Shown one piece after another: positions 40,240-58,096 of a stretch of DNA of 64,000 nucleotides. The notes beneath the pieces are model-generated. The model did not search any database, was not told where the DNA came from, and saw nothing but the letters and a program-made list of their open reading frames with translations. Each line of letters opens with the position of its first letter. Position 1 is the stretch's first letter. A program made the translations under genes and the position numbers. Source of the stretch: Patescibacteria group bacterium (GTDB taxonomy: Bacteria; Patescibacteriota; Patescibacteriia; 2-12-FULL-60-25); assembly GCA_028688515.1 (NCBI GenBank), contig JAQTXZ010000001.1:248001-312000 (forward strand), read 5' to 3'.

Positions 40240-40882
40240 GAAAAAATCGTATAACGTACAACGTACGGCGTACAACGTGGTACGGAATCGAAATTCGAGA
40301 TTCGCCAAGGGTTTTACCGTCGTTGAGCTTTTGGTGGTGATGGTTTTGTTTTCAATCTCGATCACGATTCTGACGCAGACCTATATCACTTTTATCCGTC
40401 TTTCTCATCGTACGGGCAATGCCGCGACTTTGCAGCAGGACATGCGATTTACGTTCGAATACATGACTCGCAATTTGCGAAATATTCCGATTGATTATCC
40501 GGCATTGCCAAAAACTTTGGACAACACCACTTCCACATTGCGCCTAAAAGATCCGAGTCAAACCGATGCGTGGATCCTGACCAAAACTCTCGCGGGTGAT
40601 GCGCGTTGCGGAGACGCGCCGGACGTTTCCTGTCTTGTCGTTTCAACCGATGGCGGCTTCAACTGGGCGCCGGTGACGTCCAAGCACGTGAACGTCGAAA
40701 CTTTTAAAGTTTTAATTCGTCCCATGGCAACTCCATTTGCTTTGTCCGGCAATGATTATACGAGCGATCAGCAGCCTTTCGTGACCGTACAGATGAGGTT
40801 GAGTTACATAACCAAAGTGGAAAAAGAAAAAGTCAACTTGACCGCTCAAACCACGATATCATCCAGAGTTTATGTCAGATAA
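40226..40882 (+). CDS. PilW-like minor pseudopilin with repeat-derived leader
   Basis: 218 residues. The prepilin site AKG-FTVVELLVVMVLF comes only after a 28-residue leader, much longer than the 6-8 residues of its neighbours. The extra leader (YNVQRTAYNVV) is read from a gtacaacgta repeat that also occurs in frame in ligA. The body has RFTFEYMTRNLRNI and beta strands typical of PilW/GspJ. The gene overlaps both neighbours. Confidence 0.82.
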   Translation: MTGVEKKSYNVQRTAYNVVRNRNSRFAKGFTVVELLVVMVLFSISITILTQTYITFIRLSHRTGNAATLQQDMRFTFEYMTRNLRNIPIDYPALPKTLDNTTSTLRLKDPSQTDAWILTKTLAGDARCGDAPDVSCLVVSTDGGFNWAPVTSKHVNVETFKVLIRPMATPFALSGNDYTSDQQPFVTVQMRLSYITKVEKEKVNLTAQTTISSRVYVR

Positions 40883-41684
40883 AGCAAAAGGAAATATCAC
40901 TGCGTTTGCTATCGTGCTTGTAGCGATGCTTTTGTTGGTGGGTATGGGCATCGGAACAGTTGTACTGGAAGGTTCGCGCCGTGCAGTCGAGACGAACAAT
41001 GCTGTCGGTGCGTATTATATGGCAAATTCCGGCATAGAGATGCAGCTGTTTGACGTTAGAAAGAATAACATGGCGCTGGCTAACGTGGCGCTTGCGAGCA
41101 GCCTTTATCCCGGCGGATCGGCTTGGCAATCGACGACAGGGTACGAATTAAGTTCCATAAAAAACATTGCGTATCTTGGCGAGGAGGACCTTTCTTTTGT
41201 CGACTTGTTTGATCCGGATAAGCTGAATCAACCGGCCGGCGTTAAAGGCATCAAGATAGAATGGGCTACCGGCGGGGTGGCTTGTCAGCCTGATATAGAG
41301 ATCGGTTACACGGAGTGGAGCGTTGGCGCGACAATCGCGTGGCCAACAAATGCTGCAGATTACACCATTCAAATTGGACCGTATGCGGAACGCGCGGGTT
41401 ATTTGGTTGGTCCATTGGACACGACCAAAGCTTATCGTTTACGTTTGCGTCCTTTCAAATGCGCGGCGAAGGATATTAAAGTTACATTGTATGATGCGAG
41501 TGACAACGAGATCGCTTACCCGGGAGATATCACGCTTGGCTCCGAAGGCACTTACAACAAAACGACGCAGCGCATAAAAGTCACCATGCCGCGTCAGGAT
41601 ATTCTCTCCGGCATATTCAGTTACATCGTCTTTTCGCAAGACGAGCTGTGCAAGCGGGTTGGGGGAGCCGGGGTTTGTCCGTAA
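40872..41684 (+). CDS. PilX/GspK-like pilus protein
   Basis: 270 residues. Short N-terminus MSDKAKG then NITAFAIVLVAMLLLVGMGIGTVVL, lacking the Glu5 motif but with PilX-like helix and ANSGIEMQLF. A C-terminal domain of beta strands contains three or four cysteines. GspK and PilX proteins often cap the minor pilin tip. It overlaps the previous gene by 11 bases and ends the pilus operon. Confidence 0.72.
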   Translation: MSDKAKGNITAFAIVLVAMLLLVGMGIGTVVLEGSRRAVETNNAVGAYYMANSGIEMQLFDVRKNNMALANVALASSLYPGGSAWQSTTGYELSSIKNIAYLGEEDLSFVDLFDPDKLNQPAGVKGIKIEWATGGVACQPDIEIGYTEWSVGATIAWPTNAADYTIQIGPYAERAGYLVGPLDTTKAYRLRLRPFKCAAKDIKVTLYDASDNEIAYPGDITLGSEGTYNKTTQRIKVTMPRQDILSGIFSYIVFSQDELCKRVGGAGVCP

Positions 41685-41722
41685 ACATCGTGATCTTGAT
41701 GTATTTTTGGGATATCCACATC

Positions 41723-41752
41723 TTGAATAATCCCTTGATTTGTGCTTATAAT
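41723..41752 (+). promoter_or_regulatory. Promoter of the candidate structured RNA
   Basis: -35 TTGAAT (41723-41728), 18-base spacer, -10 TATAAT (41747-41752). Predicted start near 41759. A palindromic GGATATCC lies just upstream. Confidence 0.65.
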
Positions 41753-41758
41753 TGAATA

Positions 41759-41901
41759 GGTGCAAAGCAAAGCGAGGCCTCGCTAATTATTCCCGTCCAA
41801 AAAGATTTGTGTGACGGGATCCCGCAAAATGCGGTGATAAGTGAGGCTTTTATATTTAGCTTGGTTTGTTAGCCACAGCCCATCCTTGTGGCTTTTAAAC
41901 C
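41759..41901 (+). ncRNA. Candidate structured RNA with three-way junction
   Basis: By hand folding: outer stem GCCTCGC (41777-41783) with GTGAGGC (41841-41847), extended by TTATT with GATAA; hairpin one CCCGTC/GACGGG (41792-41797 and 41813-41818) with inner CAAA/TTTG; hairpin two CCGCA/TGCGG (41822-41826 and 41830-41834). A terminator-like stem follows. It has its own promoter and no ORF. It fits no family I can name and could be a riboswitch-like leader or a trans-acting RNA. Confidence 0.45.
41871..41897 (+). terminator. Terminator-like hairpin of the candidate RNA
   Basis: AGCCACA, loop of nine, TGTGGCT, TTT; flanking GGTTT (41863) and AAACC (41897) lengthen the stem. Confidence 0.6.
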
Positions 41902-41915
41902 TTTATCGATATAAT
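41886..41915 (+). promoter_or_regulatory. Promoter of the coiled-coil gene
   Basis: -10 TATAAT at 41910-41915, nine bases before the ATG, with a possible -35 TTGTGG (41886-41891) at 18 bases. The -35 overlaps the preceding terminator stem. Confidence 0.58.
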
Positions 41916-41924
41916 GCAATAACT

Positions 41925-42284
41925 ATGTCAGACGAGATAATGAAAGTGCTAGATAAGCAAGGTCGTGTTTTGGAAGATATTAGCAAAGTGCTAAAAGAAC
42001 AGAGTGATACGCTTAAAGAGCATGGTAAAAAGTTTGAAGTTATCAACAAGACTCTTGAGAGGCATGGCGATCAGTTGGATTTTTTGGCTAAGAAATCAAT
42101 GGAACATGACGATCGCTTTAAGGATCTCGCTACAAAACAAGAATTCAGGACTTTGTATGATCACATGGACAATATCATCGGTATAATGTCCAAAAGGGAT
42201 CAGGAAGCGACGTTTTTAGAGTCTAGAGTCACAAGATTGGATTCCAGAGTCACGCGCATCGAGAAAAAAATGGATATGGTATGA
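41925..42284 (+). CDS. Small coiled-coil protein, unknown
   Basis: 119 residues with heptad-like repeats throughout (LEDISKVLKEQSDTLKEHGK and later LESRVTRLDSRVTRIEKK). No membrane segment. It overlaps the ligA start by four bases (ATGA), so it is translated with the ligase. Function unknown; similar short coiled-coil proteins are common in these genomes. Confidence 0.7.
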   Translation: MSDEIMKVLDKQGRVLEDISKVLKEQSDTLKEHGKKFEVINKTLERHGDQLDFLAKKSMEHDDRFKDLATKQEFRTLYDHMDNIIGIMSKRDQEATFLESRVTRLDSRVTRIEKKMDMV

Positions 42285-56514: not shown

Positions 56515-56760
56515 ATGATATGCCAATCATGCGCCATGCCTTTGGTTAATGCCGAAGACTTCGGTACAAACACCAACGGTTCGCAGAACAACACGTACTG
56601 TCATTATTGTTTTAAGGACGGTGCTTTTACCTGGCCGCAAGCAACGCTCGAAGAATTTACCGACAAGATGATCGGCATGGCCGACAAGATGGGAATGACC
56701 AGCGATGAGGCGAGCAAGATGGCACGTGAGGTGCTGCCGACTCTTAAGCGTTGGCGATAA
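56515..56760 (+). CDS. Zinc-ribbon domain protein (zf-ribbon_2 type)
   Basis: 81 residues. MICQSCAMPL and TYCHYCFKDGAF give two CxxC pairs of a zinc ribbon, matching the small MxCQSCGMPM...YCxYC family that is annotated as a putative zinc-ribbon domain. The C-terminal half is helical (EEFTDKMIGMADKMGM). Members often accompany methyltransferase or transcription genes, but the function is not established. Confidence 0.82.
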   Translation: MICQSCAMPLVNAEDFGTNTNGSQNNTYCHYCFKDGAFTWPQATLEEFTDKMIGMADKMGMTSDEASKMAREVLPTLKRWR

Positions 56761-56763
56761 CCA

Positions 56764-56825
56764 AATAATCCATATTCCAAATTCAAAATTCTCACCGCCC
56801 CGGCGGGATCCCGCCACATCACATT
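56764..56825. repeat. attccaaattcaaaattc words plus GGCGGGATCCCGCC palindrome
   Basis: A CGGCGGGATCCCGCC hairpin (56802-56816) follows quasi-repeats, just upstream of the flavoprotein ribosome site. Confidence 0.5.
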
Positions 56826-56842
56826 CAAAGGAGGCGGGACAA

Positions 56843-58096
56843 ATTCAATTTGATTTGATCGTCATCGGTGGGGGACCGGCCGGATTGATGGCGGCCGGGC
56901 GCGCGGCAGAGAGTGGTGCGCGCGTTTTTTTGTTGGAAAAGAATTTTGCCGCCGGACGCAAGTTGCTGATGACCGGCAACGGGCGCTGTAATGTTACGCA
57001 GAAGGAGGACAATATCCGCGACCTGGTAAAAAAATATCGCAACGGCGCGTTTTTGTTTTCCGCTTTTCATGCTTTTGGTCCGCGTCAGGTGATTGAATTT
57101 TTCGAAGAATGCGGAGTAAGAACAAAAGAGGAAGAGCTGCAGCGCGTTTTTCCTGTTTCTGACAAAGCGGTCGACGTTTTGAATGCGCTTTTGGATTATT
57201 TGAAAGCAGGAAAAGTCACAATCAAGTACGATGCGACTGTTAAGCGTATCGAGGCGAAAGACGGCCATATCGACACTGTAGTTTTGTCCGATGGGACAAA
57301 ACTTGCGGCAAAGAAAATCATCCTAAGCGTTGGCGGACAGTCGTATCCTTCTACCGGATCGACAGGTGACGGATGGAAGTGGTTGCGCGATTTGGGTCAC
57401 AACGTCATCGACCCCAAACCCGCCTTGGTGCCGTTGAAAGTTAAAGAAGAGTGGGCGAAAGAAATTAAAGGCGTGTCGCTTAAAGACGTTGAAGTCAAAG
57501 TCATTCAAAATAAAAAGACCATTGCCAAAACGACCGGAGATTTTATTTTTACGCATTTTGGAGTAAGCGGTCCTGCGATTTTAACCGTTAGCCGCGAGGC
57601 AGTCGCTGCGCTTGGAATGACAGAGGGGCATGACAGTAATGGCATGAGCGTCAGGTTGCAAATCGATTTGTTACCGGAGCTGTCTGTCGAAAAAGTAGAC
57701 GGACATCTATCCGCAGCTTCAAAAGAATCGGCGGCAAAATCAGCCAAACATATTTTGGATGGATTAACATCTGCGCGTTTGGCGGAAATGCTGATTAAAC
57801 TCGCTAAGATTGATCCGCGTAAACAGTGCGGACAGATTATGAAGGCGGAACGGCAGATGCTCGTCACTTTATTAAAAAGTTTGACGTTGACTGTCACCGG
57901 TTCTTTGGGTTTTGAAGTCGCGATGGTCACTTCCGGTGGAGTCGATATCAAAGAAGTTGATCCAAAAACAATGCAGTCAAAATTGATTGATAATTTATTT
58001 TTTGCGGGCGAAGTTTTGGATGTCGATGGTCCAACCGGAGGTTACAATTTGCAAATGTGTTGGAGTACCGGTTTTGCCGCCGGTTCATCCGTTTAA
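56843..58096 (+). CDS. HI0933/YhiN-family flavoprotein, probable ATT start
   Basis: About 417 residues. The FAD-binding Rossmann motif [16 protein letters not shown] is at the very start, followed by [13 protein letters not shown], the [10 protein letters not shown] segment and the C-terminal [18 protein letters not shown], all typical of the family (NAD(P)/FAD-dependent oxidoreductase, substrate unknown). No ATG, GTG or suitable TTG lies at the right place; AAAGGAGG at 56827-56834 points to the ATT at 56843, eight bases on. The longer open frame reaches back into the zinc-ribbon gene. Confidence 0.85.

Follow-up and report, generated by a model that had tools for sequence, protein, structure and literature searches.

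Members of the IS200/IS605 family insert without target duplication. The transposase of IS608 contacts hairpins that carry an unpaired T, and TnpA-REP of E. coli requires a bulge in the REP hairpin (PMC8266576). GTAG REPs, REPINs and BIMEs, which occur with RAYT (TnpA-REP), are dimers of imperfect hairpins with a conserved bulge (PMC8266576), for which single-strand movement is a plausible model. CGTC-tagged REPs, including RPE-4 and RPE-6 of Rickettsia and dRS3 of Neisseria, are short dispersed palindromes that often form dimers and have intragenic copies; they apparently lack a dedicated transposase and have no known mover (PMC3733652). Their published form has a CGTC (TGTC, CCTC) tag, an 8-9 bp stem starting with AT, a loop of 4-5 and a CCA tail. 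REP dimers within palindromes have been reported in Anabaena variabilis and H. neapolitanus, and REPs are said to serve as RNA elements in other bacteria (PMC3733652).

The window analysed here (a stretch of 64,000 nucleotides from a Patescibacteria group bacterium) very probably holds, downstream of its pilus operon, a single copy of a mobile element that is short and non-autonomous, resembles a REP dimer, occurs in Patescibacteria and some other phyla, and at this site most likely split a hairpin. The element shares with CGTC REPs the short dispersed palindromes, the frequent dimers, the intragenic copies and the apparent lack of a dedicated transposase, and, like some CGTC and GTAG dimers (PMC3733652), some of its copies sit within longer palindromes. 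It differs from them in its stem, which starts TCCCGC and ends GCGG(T)GA, in its occurrence mainly in Patescibacteria and in usually lacking the tag, so that the published CGTC form does not fit it. Of 87 copies, 16 have CGTC or GACG close to one end or the other, 8 have GTAG or its complement there, and 71 have GTGA close to the right end. With GTAG REPs and REPINs it has in common the dimer of imperfect hairpins, the conserved bulge and the plausibility of single-strand movement, but it has no GTAG tag, the Y1 loci examined are not flanked by it and its co-occurrence with Y1 genes is moderate. With the ends of IS200/IS605 members it shares unpaired-T hairpins and insertion without target duplication; unlike them it has no internal transposase, its hairpins lie side by side and do not bracket a gene, and its 5' flank is T-rich with no strict target tetranucleotide. 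No description of the family was found in the open-access literature on Patescibacteria with REP or palindromic repeats. Some copies lie within CGTC-like REP palindromes, and CGTC-type REPs (GTCATCCTGAACTTGTTTCAGGATC and GTCATGCCGAACTCGTTTCGGCATC) were seen at four loci (L173, L249, L252 and L256) in congeners G006, G002 and G005.

Fold and parts of the window site

The stretch at 41690-41924 follows a pilin-like ORF (40872-41684) and is intergenic. The initial annotation, made from the letters alone, had proposed here a structured RNA with its own promoter, three-way junction and terminator in a gap without an ORF, and no convincing ORF was indeed found. The strong fold that it had drawn by hand was borne out by a thermodynamic program: the fold energy is -73.4 kcal/mol, against -51.6 +/- 4.0 in dinucleotide shuffles (z -5.4; 0/200 shuffles as good), and the three-way junction is real. 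Positions 41768-41856 fold as an outer stem around two hairpins. In the outer stem, the left arm GAGGCCTCGCT (41774-41784, + strand) pairs with the right arm AGTGAGGCTTT (41840-41850, +), the latter recovered both in the fold and when the flanks are joined; the arms pair with -17.7 kcal/mol, a value equalled by 2% of random places in the window. A T-rich tract, TTTTATATTT, was read from the sequence 3' of the stem (41848-41857, +).

Within the outer stem lies the inserted element of 47 nt, TCCCGTCC...GACGGGA TCCCGCAAAATGCGGTGA (41791-41837, +), which a covariance model of the family (R1) matches at 41785-41844 with 47.6 bits (E 2.3e-16). The borders 41791 and 41837 were set by analogy with pairs of filled and empty sites elsewhere. 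Hairpin 1, TCCCGTC...GACGGGA (41791-41819, +), folds, and its helix covaries in the family. Hairpin 2, TCCCGC AAAAT GCGG(T)GA (41820-41837, +), also folds, and its outermost pair covaries; two perfect hairpins had been described, and the second is imperfect, with a bulged T that the family keeps. A scan with the Rfam models returned no match at gathering level and nothing credible to E 10, in agreement with the view that the sequence belongs to no known RNA family. Across copies in 40 other loci, Rfam covariance models likewise gave no match to the element, and they placed tRNA, rRNA and RNase P beside copies.

The signals assigned to the putative RNA gene fared less well. The sigma70-like promoter TTGAAT-18-TATAAT (41723-41752, +) is present with 10/12 matches, but this is not above chance, since shuffles give 0.9 +/- 1.0 such sites. 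The proposed terminator, a weak second hairpin at 41871-41893 (+) that does fold, is followed by just three unpaired T and was not called in a + strand terminator scan. For the next promoter, the TATAAT at 41910-41915 is good, but the proposed -35, TTGTGG, has 3/6 matches as read from the sequence. This TATAAT ends nine bases upstream of the ATG at 41925, from which a small coiled-coil ORF was read; the ORF shares four bases with ligA, and its mRNA is possibly leaderless.

Distribution, anatomy and gene context of the family

With a 161-base query, another, partial copy came up in the same genome (81%); a wider query added two copies from a congener and several from a less closely related genome of the class. 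What these matches share is the two inner hairpins and not the flanks. The covariance model places copies at six good sites in the window's own genome (E<=1e-5): C4:289785 (the window copy described above), C4:304785, C4:387283, C4:835746, C3:16241 and C3:31608. Of these, C4:304785 is a second copy in the window (56785-56845, - strand; 52.9 bits, E 1.9e-18). It lies at the 5' end of an ORF for an HI0933-like flavoprotein (56705-58096; Pfam), where no in-frame ATG, GTG or TTG was seen by eye between the element and the FAD motif, so that any start given for this ORF is tentative.

Beyond this genome, the exact pattern CGGGATCCCGN{2,14}CGGTGAT was present in 8 of 96 related genomes; in two of the eight, G016 and G060, the matches resemble coding sequence, and a reversed control pattern had no match in the 96. 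Pattern matches that look like coding sequence, in G016, G060 and many high-GC genomes, were left out as copies, as were two matches on viral contigs with high-GC flanks unlike those of the element. The covariance model matched 101 of 240 genomes of the class (E<=0.01), with at most 21 copies per genome, and 21 of 287 genomes sampled from the whole phylum (E<=1e-6). When bacterial and archaeal genomes were scanned, 49 copies in AT-rich context came to light, loci from whole genomes included. Many of these are in Patescibacteria (Roizman-, Falkow-, Magasanik-, Levy-, Nealson- and Shapirobacteria and Microgenomates) and some in WOR-3, Omnitrophota, Zixibacteriota and Ignavibacteriales. The family is thus REP-like in the broad sense, with at least six copies in the window's own genome, up to 21 elsewhere, and unrelated neighbours.

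The consensus is TCCCGC-loop1-GCGGGA|TCCCGC-loop2-GCGG(T)GAT, in which the two halves are versions of one hairpin and the second keeps an unpaired T. Relatives elsewhere and covarying inner stems, which the initial annotation had named as its check, were both found. In 133 distinct rows aligned to the model, 98.1% of pair cells are paired and both sides change in 6 of 12 pairs, which none of 500 shuffles reaches; the alignment was fitted to the model, and these counts lean toward structure. Exchanges include C-G to G-C in hairpin 1 (for example, TCCCGC/GCGGGA and TGCCGC/GCGGCA) and, in the basal pair of hairpin 2, U-A to C-G, the bulge being retained. Such covariation fits palindromic DNA as well as RNA, both predicting the same changes.

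The neighbours of the copies bear on whether the fold serves as an RNA. The next gene is sense to 45 copies and antisense to 26, and 18 copies lie within ORFs, as judged with a rough ORF caller. The downstream genes examined are unrelated (prfB, lemA, dnaK, recO, mltG-like, glycine-transporter-like and fmt), and the outer stem varies between copies. Neither the constant orientation nor the related downstream genes of a riboswitch or other cis-acting leader were found. The 18 intragenic copies, taken from the same rough caller, are mostly antisense to their ORF; the sense strand has TGA or TAA in one frame. The copy at C4:387283 stands in frame within a stretch of 823 residues that contains glycosyltransferase and O-antigen-ligase domains, and the linker at its site is shorter and different in congener G002; this in-frame copy resembles the REPs that Di Nocera and others describe within genes (PMC3733652).

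Comparison with congeners gave no counterpart at the window site. The interval between the pilin gene and ligA measures 0.6 kb here and about 1.9 to 4.3 kb in five congeners that have both genes on one contig (in three others the genes are on separate contigs), and it holds different DNA in each congener, making it hypervariable. Exact-pattern copies are absent altogether from 7 of 8 congeners, and the two in G007 lie elsewhere than between pilin and ligA; none of the congeners offered a clean, empty counterpart of the site that the window copy occupies.

A riboswitch or sRNA, as a dedicated RNA driven by its own promoter, would account for the fold, the lack of an Rfam family and the covarying hairpins. 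Against it stand the multi-copy dispersal, unrelated neighbours, both orientations, the intragenic copies, the congener comparison and a promoter not above chance, and it is very improbable. On account of the dispersal we reject a riboswitch or sRNA, and the RNA-gene reading of the initial annotation, whose inner part is a dispersed multi-copy element, is unlikely. That annotation had counted a match to a known repeat against itself; the element is a repeat, though a previously unannotated one.

Insertion sites and flank pairing

Exact filled and empty site pairs were found at two loci. At L053 the filled site reads GTCATCCCCGAATG[element]TATTAATCGGGGATC, and an empty partner about 350 bases away is identical at 26/26 joined bases; here the insertion is in a REP-like palindrome. 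At L260 (G159:C18) the element occupies the anticodon loop of a tRNA-Tyr-like sequence, AGATTTA[element]CAGTCTG, and an adjoining intact tRNA-Tyr has the joined sequence (26/26 bases). Neither pair shows target duplication, a trait that both share with insertions of the IS200/IS605 family.

Further copies lie within tRNA- and 5S-like sequence. Another L260 copy, read by eye, occupies a T-loop-like place in another tRNA-Tyr-like copy. At L212 (G122:C60, 148-450) an intact tRNA-Ser is followed by tandem tRNA-Ser-like fragments with whole or partial elements at the anticodon, and at L221 the element interrupts a 5S-like fragment beside an intact 5S gene. ARAGORN found no tRNA spanning the junction in element-excised sequences; tRNA-like targets were therefore called by similarity to the intact neighbour, and they may be pseudogenes. 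In the same region of L260 (850-1330), where tRNA-Tyr-like copies lie near the intact tRNA-Tyr, a D-loop is apparently interrupted by another palindrome. More copies at a similar tRNA-Tyr-like anticodon site (GATTTA|CAGTC) were seen at L316, L309 and L326 in G133, G157 and G122.

Pairing between the flanks was compared with a null model in which sites are chosen at random, so that the two flanks of one copy would pair no better than flanks of different copies (permuted). Across 81 copies, flanks of the same copy proved the better partners (duplex z -6.7 at 12 nt). For the subset of 27 copies whose GC exceeds 36%, the duplex z is -6.9, the inverted match z 6.5 and the direct match z 0.6; this GC cut was chosen after the data had been seen, and further loci were therefore fetched as a hold-out. 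At 12 nt the 44 usable new copies gave a z of 4.3 for inverted and 7.2 for direct matching. Those above 36% GC gave 4.7 for inverted and 3.2 for direct matching, the direct z of these GC-richer copies ranging from 3.2 to 4.7. A strong apex stem right at the junction occurs in 14 of 122 copies against 1.8 expected (p<0.0002). Copies were counted as independent, and the seed set was picked by the exact core pattern. Placement at hairpin tips is a real excess, clear for a minority of copies.

Where the flanks are AT-rich, direct repeats are common and stronger (z 7-10) than inverted ones; insertion without duplication alone does not explain them. The AT-rich flanks of L002, L014, L111, L117 and L138 have direct repeats in common and show an apparent 7-base period (TTGTTAA, AATTCGT). 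Direct repeats in AT-rich flanks, together with element ends (TCCCGCC and GGCGG(T)GA) that are near inverted repeats, would suit a MITE-like element that has terminal inverted repeats, duplicates its target and depends on a DDE transposase for movement. That explanation is quite unlikely: the two exact pairs lack duplication, the flank direct repeats vary in length, and they fade in the GC-richer flanks of the first set, though not in those of the hold-out.

In the window copy, six bases separate the left arm from the junction, which keeps this copy out of the top apex stems. When the element is removed and the flanks are joined, they read GAGGCCTCGCT-AATTATTA-AGTGAGGCTTT followed by TATATTT and form an 11-bp hairpin (-16.3 kcal/mol), which with the T-rich tract resembles an intrinsic terminator of the pilus operon. 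Given the excess pairing of cognate flanks and its repetition in the hold-out, the outer stem of the initial annotation is most likely an older, terminator-like hairpin (GCCTCGCT/AGTGAGGC plus TTTTATATTT) that the element split. We infer that the element inserts without target duplication, often in or beside the loop of an existing hairpin, and that at the window it would have entered the loop of the terminator-like hairpin behind the pilus operon. The splitting of such a hairpin would give the three-way junction seen there. The empty window allele is predicted to read ...GCCTCGCTAATTAT|TAAGTGAGGCTTTT.

Its position downstream of the pilus operon within a terminator-like hairpin, and the roles of REPs as RNA elements elsewhere (PMC3733652), could also mean that copies persist mainly as adopted RNA signals (mRNA 3' ends, stability or attenuation), the window copy being the 3' end of the pilus transcript. 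The mixed orientations and intragenic copies, from the rough gene caller, speak against this, and it is on balance unlikely, though compatible with mobility; under the mobile-element reading any effect on transcript ends would be secondary. A wider proposal is that the element has a general specificity for hairpin tips, whether in terminators, in REP palindromes, in the anticodon and T loops of tRNAs or in loops of 5S, and that the RNA products of some genes might lose it in the way of a minimal intron; this we regard as doubtful, with about one chance in four.

A candidate mover and the meaning for Patescibacteria

The lack of target duplication, the bulged T and the T-rich 5' flank recall the single-strand Y1 transposases (PMC8266576), and a Y1 (HUH) enzyme is a plausible, not proven, mover. 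As a dedicated partner, a Y1 transposase had seemed indicated by a first sample, in which all six element-bearing genomes had one; in 240 genomes this weakened: Y1_Tnp genes occur in 78% of the 41 genomes rich in the element and in 51% of the 139 genomes free of it (p 0.002, with no correction for ancestry). Nine of the genomes rich in the element show no Y1 gene, and no element copy was found within up to 1.5 kb on either side of 20 Y1_Tnp loci in seven genomes, six of them element-bearing. At L210 (G253:C52, 1303-1869) a copy splits a Y1_Tnp-like ORF right after the HUH motif, within a GGGCGTTCT/AGAATGCCC palindrome; the ORF ends in a palindrome of the same type that is intact, and no empty ortholog was found for this copy.

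A tempting but false RNA gene thus gives way to a family of mobile hairpins without an Rfam match, hosted by organisms that are hard to culture. If true, precise insertion at hairpin tips without duplication would imply single-stranded folded DNA (or RNA) as the target. Structured-RNA screens in Patescibacteria will meet the element repeatedly, because split hairpins mimic three-way junctions with covariation.
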